Shown here one piece after another: positions 5,238-58,240 of a stretch of 61,230 bases of DNA. The DNA comes from Dinochytrium kinnereticum. Taxonomy: Eukaryota; Chytridiomycota; Chytridiomycetes; Chytridiales; Chytridiaceae. Location: contig JADGJT010000108.1 of the NCBI GenBank assembly GCA_027604005.1, positions 1,530 through 62,759 on the forward strand. The letters run 5' to 3'. Every line of letters starts with the position of its first letter. The first letter of the stretch is position 1. The notes below the pieces were generated by a model, which worked only from the letters and a program-made list of their open reading frames with translations, searched no databases and was not told the DNA's origin. The position numbers were made by a program, and so were the translations under genes.

Positions 5238-8200
5238 ATGATCTACTACCCTCCTTCCCTCCACCGTTTTTACGAGACAGAGTCTCCCCAGAGGATCCCG
5301 TTCAATGCGGGTCCAGAGGCATTCACGAACCTCGAGGCTCCAAAATTCATTGCTCTGCCGATCAAGAGGAACTGTCTTCAGGCCCAGAATGAAGGCCAGC
5401 CATCTGTTGGAGATGTCATGAAACTCCTTACCATTGCCACCCAAAGGGTCATGAGAAAGGCCGCCGGGGTCGATCCTTCCATGAATAACAGCAACATCTC
5501 TCTGGAATCAACCAAGAGTGCCGCATCTGGTCCGTCTGCAGGTCCTCAGCCGAATGAGCTTGTGGACTTCGAAATGCTCTTGAGCGAGCATATCGCGTTG
5601 CTTGTTGGGAGGCGTAATGAGACAAAGGGGTCTCCGCGAGCTTCCTCTGTTTCAGCTAGACTCTCAGCCGTTGATTCCAAACCCCCAGCTGATGGCTCAT
5701 GGAGACAAAGTCGCGAAAGGGTCCCTGGAGCCCCTGCTTTTCGAACCGTTTCACTCTTTGACGCTATTCAGATGGGGGATATGGATCTTGAACAGCCGCG
5801 AACTACTTTCCGCGAATCTGAAGAGGCAGCGAGGAGCGGTGAAGTGCAGAACGTTGAGACGGATATGGCGAGGGATGAGGAGAGTGCGAAATCTTGGAAT
5901 CAGTTGATGCATACGACCATGTCGTTTCTTCCGACAAAGTATGAATGGGGGTCTCTAAACCAACTTCGGGTGTTTGCAGGGGCTCCTGAGAAGTCTGAGA
6001 GAGGGGTTGAAAAGCTTTCATAGTATGTGATTTTGGTACTTTCGCCCAATATTCATTTTCCTTAGCTATTTTTCTATTCTGACGAGTATGGAGGAGAAGC
6101 TTCACATGGATTTGAATATTGTGGGTCTTGACTGATATCAACTTATTAGCTAATGGATTGAAGATAAAGATTCCCTTCACTTGGTATGAAGCTTTTCACA
6201 CAGACAAAAAGGGTAAGCTCTCTTAGCTTTTGATAAACGTTAATTCTTCTTTCTTGTAGTTATCACAACCTGTATCCATTACGAAAAGGCTGCAGTTCTC
6301 TTCAACATTGCCGCGATATACTCTCAACTAGGAAGCTCACAAAGACTATGGAATAAAGACGGAAAGAAGCTCGCAGCGTCTTTCTTCCAGGTAACCTTCG
6401 ATTTTCCCAACTCATTCTAATTGATTTATTTTACCCGGACGCAGAAAGCTGCTGGTGTTTTGACCCATTTGCGCGATACCCTGTGGCATCGGTTCCAGAT
6501 TCGTTTGGACCACACATCCGATCTTTCGGAGGAAACTCTCACTGCCGCGTCGCACCTTCTCTTGGCTCAGGCTATGGAGTGTTATTACGACAAAGCGACT
6601 GAAGGTTTGTTGGCGTATGTGTTTCAGAATATTTAGAATATCTAGATCGAGTCAAGAGCGCGGTTACATCTATGATCGCTGCCCAAACTTCAGACTACTA
6701 CGAGGTGGCTCTCCGTTCTTCCCGTTTAAACGTTGCTCTTATAAGCCGTGGTAGATTTCCAAAGGTTTAGTTGAACCACTTTATTTTATAAATTAACCAA
6801 CTACATTGCTATCCAGGAATGGACAACCCTAATGAATATTAAGTTTAACTTTTTTGGTTCCGTCGCGCACTTTCACGCTCCTCTTTCTCTGACCGCAGAG
6901 CAAGCTGTTGGAGAAAGAATTGCGCGGCTTTCAATGGCACGCAACCTGGCGTTAAAGTCGTTTAAAATAAGTAAAGATGTTGGAGGAGCCGTTCAGGATT
7001 TGCTTAACGTATTACCATTAGAAACAACCTTTCAAACTAACATCTATTTATTTAATCTTAAGGCTTACCTGAGCGTTGTGACGTCAGCCCATCTCCTAGC
7101 CGATGCCGCAAATTTCGAAAGATACCACCACCCATCTGTTGATACAAAAGTTCTTCAGCCACTTAAGAGACCATTGGAGGCGCTTGTGATGCCTTGGCCT
7201 TTTGAAGCTACTGTTGGAGATATCAATCGGTTTCCGGATATGTTTAGCGCTGTCATCTCGGTGGCTTTTCAATCTGATGCGGCATCACTATTTTCGACCC
7301 ATTTGAAGTTGATTCGGGCGGGAAGTGCTGACTTAAGGTCATCCTTGTTTACGATCGAAAGGTATGAGGGTTTAATATAATAATTGTTTGCTTTTTTGTG
7401 TGTCAATATCGTTTACTATTTTCTTTTCGTTTTTTTTTTCTCTCGCATAAAGAGCTTTGCAAGATCTTGAGCCCGAGCTTGTAGTTTCTGGAACGAGCGA
7501 GGAGAACGATATCATGATGAGGAGCAAGATCGTTGAACGGGCAAATTATGTGAAAGATAGGCTGGAGACATTACGGAAGGATGAGGTTGTAAAGAAAATT
7601 GAGGAATCAATCGCAGCTCTTTCTCAGGTTCATGAATTCATATCAAGTAATCTCCAAAAAGTGTGTGCCCTAACTCGATAAATGCTATTTATGCTAACAA
7701 ATTACTATTGAAAAAAAAGGCTATGGAACAGCTCGACGAGATAACAGTCAGAGGACGCATATCCGATTCTTCGCTTGTCGAAAGGTCACGCCACCTGCGC
7801 ATTGAAATAGTTCACCTCAGTGAGCAACTCATCGTCGCAAGGATGGCCAAAAAAACTCTAACGGAGCAATACTCTTCTGAAAAGTCTCAATTTGACCCGG
7901 AGGAATGGACGGCGGATAAGCTTGAACAACTTTTCCCTCTTACTGACAGTCATGCCACTTTTGAGTTTGAGAAGAAGAGGAACGACGAACTTTGTGCTTT
8001 GTTTGGGGAGATGCAGAGTGTCAAAGAGTTGATTGAGGGGAAGATTAGGGAGCTTGAGGAGTTGGAGAGGAGGGCAGGGGAAGGTATATATTATTTCTTT
8101 CGACGACGTTTTTTTTGGTTGTTAATGATCTTATTTTGTTCCTTCAGATTTGAATGAAAATGCATTGGATAGGGACACCTTAAAAAGAATGCAAAATCGG

Positions 8201-25065: not shown

Positions 25066-25254
25066 TATTTCGTTTCCTATGTTTTACTACTTAAGTCTTG
25101 AGGGTCGGTGCGTCGAGTGGGTTTTATGAATATGTTAATTTGGCTCTTCACGTAAATATCATTCAATAGAAGATGCATAATCCATGTGTGTAATGACTTC
25201 ATAAGTTATGGCAGTGTTAAATCGCATTGAAGTCCGATATTTCAATGTTTTTTC

Positions 25255-26838
25255 ATGTCAGCACTTCCCCAAAAAATGTTGTCATGCAGAAGACGTAAGC
25301 CTCAGTGGCTTCCCTTGCTCCGCTTTGTGAGCACGGCAGCGGACAAGCCAAAATCTAAAGTCAAGGAGGTGGTTCAGGTTGTTAGAAGGGGAGAGTCTTC
25401 AATCTTGACTAGGCTCACGCTAGCCGATCCCAGTCCTCAACGCGAAAGGCTGAAGAATAACGTTTGGATTGTCTTGAGAACAGTCAACGATGGCACTAAG
25501 CCTGTTATTCTGGAGCCTATTTCCCGACAGCTTCCTTCCACTGAGCATAGGGCGGGAGAGTTCTTGACTCATAAAGCTCGATCGGCCTTCCTTGCTGTCA
25601 AGAACACTCTCATCATGACCTTTCTCCCGAAATCTTACCCCGAGTCCGTCACCCCCGATTACCTTCCTTACACTCTTTGGCATTTTGCGCACTCTGTCTC
25701 AGGGACCATCACTGGAACGCTATCGACTCAAGCCCTTCTTCAGGCTTTGGGCATGGGGGTCAGCGCATCCATTGGAATTGCCGCCACCACCAATTGGATC
25801 ATCAAGGATGGGTTTGGACTTCTCGGTGGAGTTCTCTATGCTGCTTTCTTTGGATCGAGATTTGATTCTCAGGCGAGACGGTATCGATTTCTCGCAGCTA
25901 TCTCTATCCAGCTTGCCACCATTTCCGAGCTTTTGACCCCGCTGGTACCTCACCTTTTTTTACCCATGGCGTCGCTTTCAAATGTCGGCAAAAATGTTGG
26001 ATGGCTGGCTGCATCTGCCACAAAGGCTTCCATGCACAAGGGGTTTGCAAAAGGGGATAACCTGGGAGATATTACGGCTAAATCTGGCGCTCAGGCCACC
26101 CTCGCCGGGTTGGTGGGGACGACTGGAGGAATCGCTATTTCGTGGTTTATGGCGACTGTCTCAGGAGGGACTGTGATTTCACCATGGACTATGCTTTGGG
26201 TGTTCGCGCCCATTTCGGCGTTCAATCTTTGGTCTGCTTACCGGGCGAATTTGGCCGTCGTCACGCGATCCATTAATGTAGAGAGGGGGGAGCTGGCTCT
26301 TTATGAATGCATCAGTAAGCTTTGCGCGGCAGGGACTTGGGATCAGGCGAATATCGCCATGGCTCTCAATGCCATGCCGTGTCCCAAGGCAATAGGGGAA
26401 AAAGAAGCCTTTGTCATGCCGTTTCGATCGGCGTTCCGCGTGCCCCTTGACGTTGAGCCCCCTATTGACTGGGCTTTGGGCCAGATGGATGTTCAATCCG
26501 CTGAGACGTTCCTTGAAGGGACTCTTCAAAGTGAAGGACAGGACAGAGCACGGAATTATCGCATCTTTGTGTCGTTTCCCTTGGGGACACCTAGGGTTTC
26601 GTTGTGGTTTTTGGAGGGTTCCACGCCGGAGGACCACATAAGAGGCTTTTATCATGCTTGCGTTATGAGGAATCTTCTTGAGATGAAGGGAAACTCTGCT
26701 TCCGCGAATGTAACGGAAATGGCTGCTAGGTTGGTGGATCTATCATTTGATTCTATTTTGGAGAGATTCAAGAGGTTGGGATGGATGACAGAGTATACAC
26801 ATCTTGCGGATCGGAATGCCCGCATTACTATAGGCTGA
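25255..26838 (+). CDS. RUS (root UV-B sensitive)/DUF647 family protein
   Basis: A single exon of 527 residues with ATG at 25255. The N-terminus (RRRKPQWLPLLRFVSTAADK) looks like a mitochondrial presequence. The family core is clear: FLPKSYPESVTPDYLPYTLW, LSTQALLQALGMG, ATTNWIIKDGFGLLGG, SRFDSQARRYRFLA, and LSNVGKNVGWLAASATKASM with KGDNLGDITAKSGAQ. RUS proteins are conserved from plants to fungi and animals (human RUSF1) and are linked in plants to UV-B sensing and vitamin B6 homeostasis; the biochemical activity is unclear. Several hydrophobic segments suggest membrane association. Length is normal. It converges on the CYSTM gene with only 61 bases between stop codons. Confidence 0.92.
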   Translation: MSALPQKMLSCRRRKPQWLPLLRFVSTAADKPKSKVKEVVQVVRRGESSILTRLTLADPSPQRERLKNNVWIVLRTVNDGTKPVILEPISRQLPSTEHRAGEFLTHKARSAFLAVKNTLIMTFLPKSYPESVTPDYLPYTLWHFAHSVSGTITGTLSTQALLQALGMGVSASIGIAATTNWIIKDGFGLLGGVLYAAFFGSRFDSQARRYRFLAAISIQLATISELLTPLVPHLFLPMASLSNVGKNVGWLAASATKASMHKGFAKGDNLGDITAKSGAQATLAGLVGTTGGIAISWFMATVSGGTVISPWTMLWVFAPISAFNLWSAYRANLAVVTRSINVERGELALYECISKLCAAGTWDQANIAMALNAMPCPKAIGEKEAFVMPFRSAFRVPLDVEPPIDWALGQMDVQSAETFLEGTLQSEGQDRARNYRIFVSFPLGTPRVSLWFLEGSTPEDHIRGFYHACVMRNLLEMKGNSASANVTEMAARLVDLSFDSILERFKRLGWMTEYTHLADRNARITIG

Positions 26839-32426: not shown

Positions 32427-33566
32427 CTATGATGGAGTCACCAATTCGTCGGAAAGGACTTCGGGAGGGGGGAGAAGTTCTGGAGGAAACTCATTATTCC
32501 CACAAACACCCTCAGCAACCTCAGAAAAGCTTTGGGTCTCATCTGATTTCATCCCAAGCGACTCTCGTTCCAGCAACTCGAAATGCACTGCAAAAAAGGT
32601 GGTGCTCCGATCCCTGCTCCTGCAAACAAATCTGAATGGTTGCCCATCAAAGTATCGCATTGCGTTTAAACTGAATCCGGGAAGTCTCAGACTTATCGTG
32701 TTGAAATCAAAATAGCAGTCGAAAAAGTCCATGCAGTAGACGTAATCAGGGCTAAGCGTCACGCTTTTTCTGGCTGCCTCGTCTGCAAAGTATTGTTTGC
32801 GTTTCTCGTACGTGGTGAGGGGGTTCGGTGGAGGCGATTCGAAGAGGAGCTTGCTGTCCTCCGGAATGAGACGGGAGTGATAAGACCAGATGCCGATTTG
32901 GTTGGCGGGGTATGGTGCGTCTTGAGGCTTTATCCTAATCTTTGCGCCTGCGCAGTTGTTTAGCGAGTCTTGGGAGAGTGCCGAAGGGGGGTGGATCAAG
33001 TTCTTCTTTTTCGTAAATGGCAGTAGAGGCTTTTTGGTTTCCACATTCGCTGGAATCGGTTCGGTTTGTTTCTCCTGTGCCATGTCCCAGATCTCTGGAT
33101 CATCAACACGGTAGATTGCTAAAGAGTTCATGGCAGACACGAATGCCGAATAAATCCAAGGCTCGTTTGCCGTGAGGTCTGCGTCAAGGCCAGGGTCCAG
33201 CCACTTGGCTATCTTCACTGCAAGCCCGACGCCAGGTGGAGTGCGTATCTTGGATGGACAGTCCAGACCAAATATGACATCTTGACCACTCCATGCTTTC
33301 TTCCATCTTCCTTGAAGCATGATGGAGTAACGGCGATGTCGACCTTGAAAGTAGGAGGATTGGGGGTTTTGAATGGGGGGAGCATGGTCGTCTGGAACCA
33401 CTCCGTGAAAGTTAAGCATCCTTACGACGAGGTAGCCCGTGAAGTGCTCGGAATCGATTAGGAGGGGATTCTTTTCATCATTCACGTTAACGACTTTGAG
33501 GGCTTGAGGATCGTAGCCAGGACCCGCCCTGATGCGTAGAATGTAATCAGAGGCCGTCTTGCCCAT
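32427..33566 (-). CDS. DUF1769 family protein
   Basis: A single exon of 379 residues with ATG at 33566. Matching family features are LRIRAGPGYDPQALKVVNVN near the N-terminus, GYLVVRMLNF, YFQGRHRRYSIMLQGRWKK, GQDVIFGLDC and PPGVGLAVKIAKWLDPGLDA with EPWIYSAFVSAMN. These resemble the fungal DUF1769 domain, in which the WxDPGL-x-x-D core and P-x-x-Y stand out. The function of this family is unknown to me. A His/Phe-rich C-terminal part follows and the protein ends LSDELVTPS. It lies downstream of the small gene at 33720-34051 on the same strand, about 150 bases away. Confidence 0.8.
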   Translation of the reverse strand: MGKTASDYILRIRAGPGYDPQALKVVNVNDEKNPLLIDSEHFTGYLVVRMLNFHGVVPDDHAPPIQNPQSSYFQGRHRRYSIMLQGRWKKAWSGQDVIFGLDCPSKIRTPPGVGLAVKIAKWLDPGLDADLTANEPWIYSAFVSAMNSLAIYRVDDPEIWDMAQEKQTEPIPANVETKKPLLPFTKKKNLIHPPSALSQDSLNNCAGAKIRIKPQDAPYPANQIGIWSYHSRLIPEDSKLLFESPPPNPLTTYEKRKQYFADEAARKSVTLSPDYVYCMDFFDCYFDFNTISLRLPGFSLNAMRYFDGQPFRFVCRSRDRSTTFFAVHFELLERESLGMKSDETQSFSEVAEGVCGNNEFPPELLPPPEVLSDELVTPS

Positions 33567-33719
33567 CGGTGGTAAGAGAGCTCAGCAGCAATGTTTAGGT
33601 AACGGACGAACGGGAAATGTACTGATTGGGGTTTTCGTCATCAATGTGGTTTTATTTGGGGAACACTTTCATGAGGGTCTGGTATCATTCCATTTGGAAT
33701 CGAAGGTGCCGGTTCGCCA

Positions 33720-52705: not shown

Positions 52706-55700
52706 TTACAGTGTGATTATAATCTCAGCAGGATAGTTCATGTCGCGTAGGAGGTCGCCAACAAAGATATTCAGCATCGTGGGTCTTCATGAGATCGAGA
52801 GAAGAGCAGACATTAGAATGGCTATCCACGCATCAACTGCATTCAACATTCCAAATATGGTCACTCACCCGCAAACCACTATCAACATGTTCTGGAACAT
52901 CTCCATATCCAAATCAAACTCAGGTTGGTGGCTCAACGAATGCAACCTTCCATCACTAGCCCCATATCCTATTCTCTGCCCATCGTGGGATCCAGCAGTG
53001 ATTGTCCTGGATCTCCCAAGAATAGTTTTGTCCTCGATGCTCCTACGTCGCATTGAGTCATCCCTGGCACCGCTTGAGGAAAGATTATGTGCCCCTACGC
53101 TGTCACGGGCCTGATGGCGCTGAAAGTTAACCACAGCATCATCCCTTGTCGGAGTACGGTGCTGGTAAGGTTTGTTGGTAACATTGAAAAGCTCTCCGGA
53201 TCTGCTTCCACTTTCTCCAGCCTCTACAATTATGTCTAGGGAGCCCAAAGCCACTTATTAATTACTGGAAAACCACGCAGAGGTCGTAGAACAGGCATGG
53301 GCAATAACAACGAAGAGGTTACGTACTCTTACCATTCTTGTCCAGAGGAGGGCTAAGGGTATAGCTTCTTCGGTGCGCCATAATGGTGTTTATATGGCTT
53401 GGAACTGGCGCTACAGTTGACGAAGGTATCCAAGACGAAACCTTATGCTCCCATGGGGGTTTGGGCATCGTGGCAGAGATAACCTCCTGAGAAAGCTTCC
53501 CAACAATGTAGTTCTCATTGGCTCCCAAACTTTGCGTTGTGACTAGGTAGTTGACCATGAGGGCACCATCCGCGGCTTTTTCTAGCTCATCAACGGCGGC
53601 CGCTGCAAAGACGTCGAGCTCAGAGTGGTTCACGATGAGGAGGTAGATTTTACACAAGGGTTTGTTCGTGTGAGGATCTCGTGGGCCATGTCTGATGTGG
53701 TAGTCGATCATTAAAAATATTGGACTTAAGCCTGATTATATCAAAATGCTTTAGAGGATGCTAGAATTAAATTGATCGAGCTGTAGATACCTGTTCCACC
53801 AGCGATTAGACCAAGAACTTTCCAGCATCCATTTTCTGAGTATCGATTTAACAATTCTGGGCCTGGCATGGGTCCCCTTATTCGAATTGACCGGCAATTT
53901 ATAAGATGCCTTGTCATCTCGCCTCCATAAACCTTTATGAAAAAATCAATCCCACCCTCATTTTCACACCTAATAGGAGTGTACGACCTTGTGATAACCT
54001 TCCCGTCCTCGTCCACAAACTGAAACAAGACGCTCTGCCCAGGTTTGACCTTAAGCCGATCATCAGGTTTGCTAAATTCAAATCTAAAGTGGTAGACGGG
54101 GAATTTTGCTCCTGCCGGCGTCAGCAGGGTTTTAAACGCGAGCTGGTAGTTCTGAAAATGATCTGGAGTAATTGCAGGCCTCTTCCATCTCGATAGGCTG
54201 ACATTTGCCAGCTCCTCCATTTCTTTCGGGCTCATTGCACCGCTTCCAATAATGTGGGCATGCCGCTGAAGAGTATTGGTCTTTGACTTGCTGCTATTTC
54301 GTGACGATAGAAAGTCGCGGTTGGTAGATACATCGTCTTCGTCGTCCTTTCTTAATCGACCGACAGCCATCCCCGACAAAAGATATTTTGCAAATCGGGA
54401 ATGCTTGTGAATCAAAGCAATGGCCCCGACTTGGTCCGCCTCCCTTGCAGCTTTGGTTGTTATTTTGAGTCGATCTAAGGTTCGTCTGTTGGATCCAAAG
54501 AATAGCTTGGTTACGTCTAGGCCTACTGTATTCCTCAGCACGGAGGGCCCTCCGGGATGCTTGTCAATGAACCCCTCAATATCGTCTGTGTGTATCAGAA
54601 ATGAAGAAGCAAATATAAGAGAACAAAAAGTCAATATCCACTATCAATCTTTCTAAAAGGAAACAACAAAAAACAAGCACACTTACATATAGTATTATCA
54701 ATGATGATCCACTTGGCGCCCAAAGACACCCTCTGATTTACGTCTTCCCAATGAAATAACGGCAATTTTTCCGCCTGCCCTCTCCCTAGGGTTCCTCCTT
54801 CCATCTCAAGATTTTTTGAGGACTCAAACTTATGATACTCTCCATAAATCACCAAGAAGACAGGCATCACTCCAATTAACCCCACGTACGCCCACTGAAT
54901 CCATACCCTCGATTCATCCCCGTATTGAATATCAACAGATCCATAATACCCCGTGACAATCCCCAAAAAGTATGTGACGAAACCAAGAACGCGATGAGAC
55001 GAACGTATATAGGAGAGGTATGGTTGTATAAATTTCCAAGAGACTTTTGAGGACAGGTAGCCCGTTGCGGTGGTGGTAACCACAAGGCCCACGACGCTGA
55101 GCCCGAGACGGACGTGAGTCATGTCTACTTCACCGAACTTTCCGATAATGGCTGTGATGGCCGTGATCAAGACCTGTTGGTAATTTTATGATTGAAAAAG
55201 TCACTAGATGCCAGAGAAAGAAGGGAAAAGCAAATAGTTGAAGAAGCAAGGCAAGGCGTTTAGGAATGATAGAGACGAGAATAGAAAACAACATACATTC
55301 GACGTTACGGTTGTCATAAGCGTCGCATGAATCTCTACCCACTTATTCATGTCCGTATAATACCTCGCCACAAATATTCCTAAAGGATAGATGAATGCAA
55401 ACGCCAAAAACATTGAAAATCCATGCAGAATTTTCAGGCTCATTGATAAAGACGATAGGGTTGCCGTAATAGACACACCCTGCATGTATAAGTTGACCTT
55501 TACAGATCCCCTATTTCCTTCATGATATCGCATCTCATGAGAGCTTGGGTGGAATGCGAATATCATATCGGTGATACCGTTGATAATGTCTGTATCGCGG
55601 GAGTCTCCAGTTATGAGTTTTCGGGAGAATGAAACGGCTTGCTTTGAATTATGGCTAGAAGTAACATCTTTGACGTCAAAGACATTGCTCCGACCATCAG

Positions 55701-58240
55701 ATGATGTGTCGGCGGCTGGTATCCCAGGCGAAAAACTTTTTGAAAATGGTTAGTTGGACATTAAGGTGGATAGCTCAGTGTTAAGGACATAGGAAGGTAT
55801 CATGAAACTGCAAAATCAATTCGGAAAAATAAAATGAAGTTCTGTTACCTCCAACTATCCGTTACCCCTAAAACCCCACTTGAATTTTTCGCAGCAAAGT
55901 ATATATCCGCATTCACCATGTTACTGCCGATTCCAAACGCAAACCACCCGCTTGAATTGCTTTCGAATACAAAATTAATTACGCCCTCAGAGCTCCTCAG
56001 ATCCCATCGCAGCCTCAAAGCCCCAAATATTTCAATGGATGAAAACACAGTGTTGGTGGACGTAGGGGTTAGAGGAGCTGTCCCATCCAAACCAGACTGG
56101 CTAGCAGAAAATACGGACGTGCGGAATGGGTTGGTGGGGTATTTAATGATCTTCGTATTCTGCTTAATAAGCTCGCCGAGGAAGATCTGTGAAAGATCCC
56201 TTTTTTCATCTTCATCAAGAACACCTGGGTTTTCAAACCAGAAGCTTTTACATGTGATAGTGTCGATTAGATAAGTGGATGTACAAAGCATTTGAACTAT
56301 GCCAACTGGGATTTAAAAATATTTACCGATCCCCATCTCTTATCCTCAAAAACTGATCCTTAATAGATACAGCAAACAAAGGTCCTACGAGCGCAGACCC
56401 CGTATGATCCTCGGCCATAGCACCTGGAATTGAAAAAAGTATTTAATTGGCTTAAAGAAGTTGAACAACGCCGAAAAACGACACCCACCAACGATGGGAT
56501 CCACATTGCTGATATTGTTATTATATAATTCTCGTAGCCGGGCTTGAACATCAATATCTGCAGTGATCTCTGACCAAGCAAAATGGCGTGGAAGTCCTAA
56601 GTCCTCTCTGCATGTATTATAGTCTGGAAGACCAACGTCTCTTCCCCTAATCACAAGAATATTAAAAAAAAAAGGCAAAACATACAAAATGAGAATCGAG
56701 TGAGTTTACCTTTGCACATCCGTCGCGGGCATGTCATTCATTCTCCCACTCATAGCAAAAAAGTCTCTCATATCATCTACAACACTCACATCCACTGCCT
56801 GTTCCCTTTGTAAAGCCATCCCTCTCAAAACGCTCTCAATGCCGTGGGTCTGAAACTCCCGAATATTTGGATCAAAAATGCATCCACGCACAAGCATATG
56901 TCCAGCATCAGAAACCTGCCCGTTCTCCTCAAACCGCATGACAAGTTGGTTGATGGCGCTATGGCCGTATCGAAAAGCCACATTGGAGAAGAATAGGTCA
57001 ATCTGAGGGTTTATAGCTTCCTTGTAGCCCGCGTATGCGGGCATAGCCTCGCCAAGGAGAACTGGAAGGTACTGAGTTTGGAAGTTAAATTCTTGTCGAG
57101 CAATAGTGATCCCAACCTGATAGTATGTTATCTTCTGCAAAATTGCAATCAGCCATTTTCTCGCTTTTTGGTAGATCTCCTCGTCACTCCAAGTTGGATG
57201 TACGGCCTTGATTTGTCGAGCCTTCCTATTATGCTCTCTCAGGAAAACAACATAGCCAGCCAGAATTTGCTACAAGGATTTTTAAGTACATCAGTATTCT
57301 TATATAAAGGGGCAGGTACAGAAAGCAACTATAAATAACTAAACTCGAAAATTTCAAGGAAAGAATGACATGTAAAATGACTACGGAACATCATGCAAAA
57401 CCATACCGGACTGATGTTGACCTCTACATTTGGAAAGGCAAACAGCCCGTCAGAAGCCTTTACCGGAAACTCCCCTGTAGAGTAATTCTGAGACTTGAGA
57501 AGCCCGTCTTTGAAACTCCTCATGGAAGCAGCTGTCTCTTCCGTATGACCGTATAAACCACTTCCATCCAGAAAGCTCGTGAGCGCATTGATGAGAATCC
57601 TGCTGTTTTTAGCCGTGTCAACCGAAGCATAGGAGCTTCGAAAAAAGTCAAAAGACGCGTTCGGCGTAGCCATAGGATTCAACGCCTCATCGGTGACATC
57701 AACCGTGACATGCCATGGTTCAGCTAAACCGCGGAATAAAAACAAACGTGGAGAACGTGTTAAAAGTGCCAGAGCCCCTAAACACTCACATTTATTTCGA
57801 GGGGTGATAAGCAGGTCTAGATGCAAGATAAGCCCCCAGCTTGCCAAAAAATCAGTCACGTTCTTCGGTGAGAAGAGGAAAGGGCTCTTTGAAAACAACT
57901 GCCTTGAGATCCGCCGTGGAGCCGGCCTTGTTGCCCCCGCGGGTGCTGAAAATGGGTGTATTAACAGATTGCACAAGTGCGAACATAAGGTTGCAAACAA
58001 ATAGCTTTCTCCTGGTGGGTAACGGTTCCAGGGCTTTGGGAGACGAAAGTGCAAAAGGTTTAGCTCACCCTGGTTAGTGCCATATCCCGACCTGATCCCC
58101 CTCAAGTAAGGCGTTCCCGACGACCCCCACAGAGGATTATTGACATTGTTACCGTAGCCTGTGACTCTCCGCACCTCGGAGGCGACCTCGCCACAGCAGC
58201 AGAGCAACGACAGCAGCAGGAGGGGAAGCAGCAGCCTCAT
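52706..58240 (-). CDS. Fusion: haem peroxidase-DOMON-cytochrome b561-cytochrome b5-FAD/NAD reductase
   Basis: About 14 exons, roughly 1,460 residues. In order: signal peptide (MRLLLPLLLLSLLCCCGEVA); animal-type peroxidase (NSRILINALTSFLDGSGLYG, NVAFRYGHSAINQL with the proximal His, DMPATDVQRGRDVGLPDYNT, GPLFAVSIKDQFLRIRDGDR); DOMON (GALRLRWDLRSS, SSGWFAFGIGSNMVNADIYF, SFSRKLITGD); b561 with all four haem His (KILHGFS, VEIHAT, MTHVRLG, SSHRVLG); b5 (FIDKHPGGPS and a second His in KHSRFA); reductase (RSYTPI for FAD, GGTGLSPIF and VVCGP for NAD(P)). Exons 56244-55849 (peroxidase/DOMON), 55173-54687 (b561/b5) and 54585-53791 (b5/FAD) each span a junction. It most likely moves electrons from cytosolic NAD(P)H across the plasma membrane or an endomembrane. 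The distal peroxidase site is altered, and the NAD domain carries an insert of about 170 residues. Confidence 0.92.

Follow-up and report, generated by a model that had tools for sequence, protein, structure and literature searches.

A chytrid gene fusing a pseudo-peroxidase fold to DOMON, cytochrome b561, cytochrome b5 and FAD/NAD modules, a candidate outward electron exporter

A single gene encodes the fused redox modules

We analyzed a 61,230-nt stretch of the Dinochytrium kinnereticum genome (contig JADGJT010000108.1; hereafter, the window), in which a minus-strand gene (58240-52706) encodes a signal peptide, a haem-peroxidase fold, a DOMON domain, a five-helix cytochrome b561, a cytochrome b5 and a b5-reductase-type FAD/NAD unit, in that order from N to C terminus. 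The coding region was modeled as 13 exons (4,422 nt, 1,473 amino acids), with all introns being GT-AG and 59-137 nt long and with zero internal stops. One segment of exon 4 required additional attention: in the 15 columns corresponding to residues 268-282, none of 19 chytrid relatives had more than 5 residues and none of 117 other sequences had 8 or more. As no relative examined has the full insert, this segment is best read as a probable further frame-preserving 45-nt intron (GTTGGG...CTCAG, 57116-57072), which would give 14 exons and 1,458 amino acids. Both the 13-exon model and the NCBI model treat it as coding. Residue numbers below follow the 1,473-residue reading; past residue 282, 15 should be subtracted for the shorter version.

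The signal peptide (approximately residues 1-21, 58178-58240) was assigned by inspection of the sequence rather than by a predictor, from a hydrophobic stretch at residues 3-21. The peroxidase fold (residues 23-527, 56124-58174) is matched over its whole length by PF03098 (An_peroxidase, E = 9.9e-112) and is also seen in a structure model of a relative, P0021. It is followed by the DOMON domain (residues 562-690, 55522-56021; PF03351 at 562-680, E = 2.6e-12), the b561 domain (residues ~716-880, 54829-55446; PF03188 in relatives) and cytochrome b5 (residues 905-1004, 54356-54756; PF00173 at 907-960, E = 2.2e-12). The C-terminal unit comprises an FAD-binding domain (residues 1066-1170, 53858-54172; PF00970, FAD_binding_6, at 1093-1166, E = 3.9e-9), which carries RSYT at 1127 and matches cytochrome b5 reductases, and an NAD-binding domain (residues 1184-1473, 52709-53818; PF00175, NAD_binding_1, at 1187-1280, E = 7.7e-5) with GGTG at 1190, CGP at 1447 and a poorly conserved insert at ~1291-1435.

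We considered whether adjacent genes had been merged by a gene model or a misassembly. The best database match, P0001, is the D. kinnereticum protein HDU67_000419 itself (its best local alignment covers 69% of the query at 97% identity), and its NCBI model is wrong: relative to the 13-exon model it starts inside intron 1, leaves out b561 helix 1 together with portions of the FAD/NAD unit, and extends into the downstream gene, thereby masking the fused architecture. While this faulty model counts in favor of an artefact, exons 7, 8, 9 and 10 span adjacent domains, so that every domain junction lies inside an exon, and the same order is found in 12 other proteins from 11 species. False joining is hardly credible on this evidence and was rejected; the one-gene fusion is real. 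The first-pass annotation of this DNA had proposed both the fusion and its order, and both are borne out, although it counted three boundary-crossing exons where there are four.

The fused order recurs across chytrid orders

Three protein searches, each scoring the best 7,984-7,995 candidates by shared words and the third giving the best 120 of 1,158 matches, identified the 12 further proteins (P0002-P0008 and P0014-P0018). Their sources are Phlyctochytrium, Blyttiomyces, Chytridiales JEL 0842, Obelidium, Synchytrium, Siphonaria, Lobulomyces, Chytriomyces hyalinus (two proteins), Entophlyctis, Physocladia and Nowakowskiella, among which Synchytriales, Lobulomycetales and Cladochytriales are represented; the window's species belongs to Chytridiales. 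Pfam scans (threshold 0.001 in one, 0.1 in the others) reported An_peroxidase, DOMON and Cyt-b5 in that order in 12/12, FAD_binding_6 after Cyt-b5 in 11/12 (P0006 had no report at E <= 0.001), NAD_binding_1 in 10/12 (no report in P0007 and P0016) and b561 between DOMON and b5 in 6/12 (P0002, P0005, P0014, P0015, P0016 and P0018). Several of these are shortened gene models: P0002, P0007 and P0018 are missing N-terminal parts of the peroxidase fold, and P0017 is a partial model with little of b561.

Further chytrid proteins with the peroxidase fold (P0019-P0024 and P0035) end early. P0022 and P0024, the latter from Powellomyces (Spizellomycetales), break off after the second b561 helix and thus look truncated. 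We built a quick tree, not bootstrapped, from 79 rows, which comprised 18 from chytrids, two from DUOX and 59 more (alternate rows of the 117 remaining, plus four named ones where not already in). The chytrid rows formed one clade, with P0008 and P0024 on long branches; the origin of the peroxidase module is not settled by this tree. Obelidium (P0005 and P0021) and Chytriomyces hyalinus (P0014 and P0016) each have two copies of the family, and since the copies fall in different clades, an old duplication is suggested.

The peroxidase fold is kept but its catalytic pocket is lost

In the available text of PMC3533774, the residues of an active peroxidase of this fold are distal Gln91, His95 and Arg239, an Asp-His-Asp motif containing the haem-linking Asp94, a conserved Glu, and proximal His336 with its partner Asn421. 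We compared these positions between 20 chytrid rows, leaving out P0001 because it models the window gene a second time, and 115 non-chytrid, non-DUOX rows, consisting of 113 from the best 120 of the 1,158 matches plus P0009 and P0012; all of those with a named organism are bacterial. Chytrid counts refer to rows with letters at the position in question.

In the window protein the distal helix reads WGLILHLD (residues 94-101, 57815-57838), with His-Leu-Asp in place of Asp-His-Asp. The Asp94 position is His in 16/16 chytrid rows (His99 of the window protein, codon 57823-57821) versus Asp in 115/115 others, and the His95 position is Leu in 13, Met in 1, Phe in 1 and Ser in 1 versus His in 115/115. 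The distal Gln (0/15), the catalytic Arg (0/18) and the haem-linking Glu (0/18) are absent from the chytrid rows and present in 115/115 others, and the proximal His has its Asn partner in 1/20 versus 113/115. More broadly, 109 columns reach 95% conservation or more among the 115 rows, and 18 of them survive in no more than 10% of chytrid rows; 10 of these 18 lie in the distal helix (96, 97, 99 and 100), the Arg/Glu loop (206-208, 210 and 213) and the Asn position (399), with the remaining 8 elsewhere. Despite this loss, the domain is well conserved overall. The proximal His is kept in 18/18 rows (His318 of the window protein, codon 56961-56963), as are Asp101 (16/16), Asp162 (18/18) and Ser164 (18/18), which we take, by position and partly from general background on the site, to form the calcium site.

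We asked whether the apparent substitutions could come from the distal helix being misaligned by one residue. Such a slip is unlikely, since the flanking WG and the following Asp align without gaps and the P0021 structure model has a single unbroken helix (residues 99-111) across its WGVMLHLD (103-110), though the helix may still contain a local bulge.

By these residue patterns, the N-terminal domain is a maintained pseudo-peroxidase, in which peroxide turnover is very unlikely because the distal Gln, the Asp-His pair, the catalytic Arg and the haem-linking Glu are missing. The first-pass annotation, which is silent on these residues, had electrons passing on to the peroxidase, and this step does not survive the comparison. 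An active peroxidase supplied with electrons by DOMON and reducing extracellular H2O2 is correspondingly a highly improbable alternative, as the distal Gln, His and Arg and both haem-ester acids are gone in every chytrid row that has those positions.

The residues that are kept are relevant to a different alternative, a second invention of the dual oxidase. In such a machine, evolved in chytrids independently of animals, O2 would be reduced to superoxide or H2O2, and the remodelled fold, at the end of a single-chain wire of FAD, b5, two b561 haems and DOMON haem, would keep a haem through His318, with the invariant His99 replacing the haem-linking Asp, as a terminal haem or product-steering site that acts on O2 or another oxidant rather than on peroxide. 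Consistent with this are the retained proximal His, the calcium-site positions, the family-specific His99, and Arg402 (19/19), which by myeloperoxidase numbering is presumably on the propionate side, as well as the plan shared with DUOX, in which an NAD(P)H-driven membrane chain is capped by a peroxidase fold. Pointing the other way, the proximal His has almost always lost its Asn partner, neither haem-linking acid is present, and Ile replaces a second Arg (315), close to the proximal His, in 6/19 rows. In addition, the human DUOX1 peroxidase domain has no haem, as far as PMC7794343 was available, and CRR, a characterized DOMON-b561 protein, is a ferric reductase in the portion of PMC10784552 consulted. 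We consider this alternative unlikely.

Ligands of the proposed electron chain are conserved

Between DOMON and b5, the window protein has five hydrophobic stretches, and H723, H755, H785 and H825 sit at b561 positions by hydropathy and alignment. In alignment A1 (8 rows), the first three histidines are present in 8/8 rows and the fourth in 7/8, P0008 being gapped there. At E <= 0.001, Pfam gave no b561 match for the window protein; in alignment A3, b561 was reported in 8/15 members at E <= 0.1 (best 6.5e-6). A phmmer search of the DOMON-b561 region against the PDB gave zero matches at E <= 10. For DOMON, the presumed haem ligands are Met596, found in 8/8 rows of A1, and His690, with a His at that column or one column away in 8/8 (the one-column shift is needed in two rows, the window protein and P0002). 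The b5 ligands H937 (in HPGG) and H989 are unchanged across A1. Thus, the four b561 and two b5 histidines noted in the first-pass annotation are all present. In the C-terminal unit, the RxYT, GGTG and CGP motifs and the overall similarity correspond to the cytochrome b5 reductase type.

Related loci in the same genome

The An_peroxidase search of the D. kinnereticum genome (three candidates scored, counts being lower bounds) gave four matches, all in the window gene. DOMON matches on contig C45 lie in short, exported-looking reading frames, several of which stand in a row at C45:54500-64400 and have DOMON-like stretches and Ser/Thr-rich tails; PF03351 matched two places there. Matches to b561 were also found on C17 and C538. 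A tblastn search with the core at E 1e-3 matched none of the loci on C83, C346 and C45. A NOX-like NADPH oxidase gene lies at C203:20500-29500. The neighbors of the fused gene in the window are ordinary, namely a UVB_sens_prot-domain protein (25231-26838) and a Duc1-domain protein (32427-33581).

Comparison with known systems

The window protein resembles DUOX1/2 in outline: both have an exported N-terminal peroxidase-homology domain without a working site, placed over a membrane domain that holds two haems, with an FAD/NAD(P)H domain in the cytosol (PMC7794343, as far as available). It is not a DUOX, because the ferric-reductase/NOX membrane domain and EF hands that DUOX has are absent, with b561, DOMON and cytochrome b5 instead; neither PF01794 nor any EF-hand family matched the window protein (E <= 0.001) or the 15 members of A3 (E <= 0.1). 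The two DUOX rows in our comparison (Octopus and Argonauta) have Leu at the distal His and no Arg, as in the chytrid family, but unlike it they lack the proximal His and keep the Glu. The first-pass annotation's description of a b561-based DUOX analogue therefore holds for the overall plan and not for an active peroxidase step. In one way the likeness is closer than proposed, since the window protein's peroxidase is dead and the human DUOX1 domain likewise lacks haem and key residues according to the same portion of PMC7794343.

The DOMON-b561 unit is shared with the CYBDOM proteins (plant CRR and animal SDR2), which have a five-helix b561 with four histidines and Met/His ligands in DOMON (PMC10784552, in part). 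CRR performs ascorbate-dependent iron reduction in the same text, whereas the window protein has built-in b5 and FAD/NAD donors and an added outer peroxidase fold. By its DOMON-b561 sequence, it fits the CYBDOM group, plus a built-in dehydrogenase and a peroxidase-fold cap.

Ncb5or and nitrate reductase, whose full domain make-up we take from general background, are among the nearest solved structures and also combine b5 and b5-reductase domains in one chain. Unlike these cytosolic halves, the b5-reductase unit here is joined to a transmembrane b561-DOMON. Certain enzymes of Naegleria and oomycetes belong to the ferric-reductase superfamily and bear an external DOMON, but their membrane part is an FRD domain, and the available part of PMC3591440 does not mention b561, b5 or a peroxidase fold. 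The demosponge DspNOX is likewise an NAD(P)H-driven membrane enzyme and carries additional transmembrane helices that are b561-like (or DUF2427); it differs in being a NOX with a PAS domain, with no peroxidase fold mentioned in the available part of PMC9524095. Lastly, P0013 from Irineochytrium annulatum has a b561-b5-FAD core by Pfam and a DOMON-like stretch seen by eye and unreported by Pfam. It differs in having no An_peroxidase match, and its model starts with a glycosyltransferase and holds an SH3 domain seemingly inside the NAD part; this model could be a real fusion or merged genes.

A candidate NAD(P)H-driven electron exporter

From the domain order and ligand residues, we infer that the window protein is an outward electron exporter with a non-catalytic peroxidase-fold cap, a reading to which we give a probability of roughly 60%. 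The single polypeptide would reside in the plasma membrane or another secretory membrane, where cytosolic NAD(P)H would reduce the FAD of the cytochrome-b5-reductase-type domain. The fused cytochrome b5 would take up the electrons and send them across the membrane through the inner and then the outer b561 haem, to the extracellular DOMON haem (Met/His ligands) and on to an external acceptor. Up to DOMON, this is the direction given in the first-pass annotation, which is supported as likely. Ferric iron chelates are the most likely acceptor; O2 and a copper monooxygenase (an AA9 lytic polysaccharide monooxygenase, LPMO) are alternatives. A probable job for the dead cap is to dock a partner, to shield or orient the DOMON haem, or to guide a released product, and the corresponding dead domain of DUOX may have a similar one.

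Several observations weigh against this reading. The hydropathy cut-off used for the b561 helices also marked four stretches inside soluble domains. The b5 histidines are unusually distant, 52 residues apart here and 47-100 in 12 relatives, compared to 24 in classical b5, which indicates an inserted loop, with the second ligand, H989, assigned by motif. PF08030, the ferric-reductase/NOX NAD domain, matched 7/15 members of A3 (E <= 0.1, best 1.8e-6) and did not match the window protein at E <= 0.001, so the pairing of the NAD part with b5 reductases is not exclusive. The whole-core structure model (P0018) is poor (pLDDT 60, pTM 0.40) and too weak for haem distances, and its fold matches are confined to the C-terminal half (~571-1095), with the DOMON and b561 folds outside them. 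As the genome also contains ferric-reductase/NOX-type loci, the window protein need not be the iron reductase. The FTR1 iron-permease matches and the one AA9 match in the genome are compatible with either acceptor. If the acceptor were an LPMO, DOMON would feed secreted copper monooxygenases much as a membrane-bound cellobiose dehydrogenase would, and the dead peroxidase would be a docking module. The Met/His-ligated DOMON and the AA9 match are consistent with such priming, but the match is single and we saw no physical or regulatory link to it, which makes this option decidedly improbable.

We found no description of this architecture in the open-licence literature covered by our search, outside which most subscription papers lie. 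In our judgement, the reason that dual oxidases retain a dead peroxidase domain is unsettled, and the chytrid family would provide an independent case, in which a peroxidase fold with a ruined distal pocket sits on a different membrane electron chain. The traits shared by the two caps (the fold, the cation site by position and the lost distal pocket) point to a non-catalytic job. If the proposed electron path is correct, these chytrids would have a b561 chain supplied by a built-in NAD(P)H dehydrogenase, for which ascorbate would not be needed.

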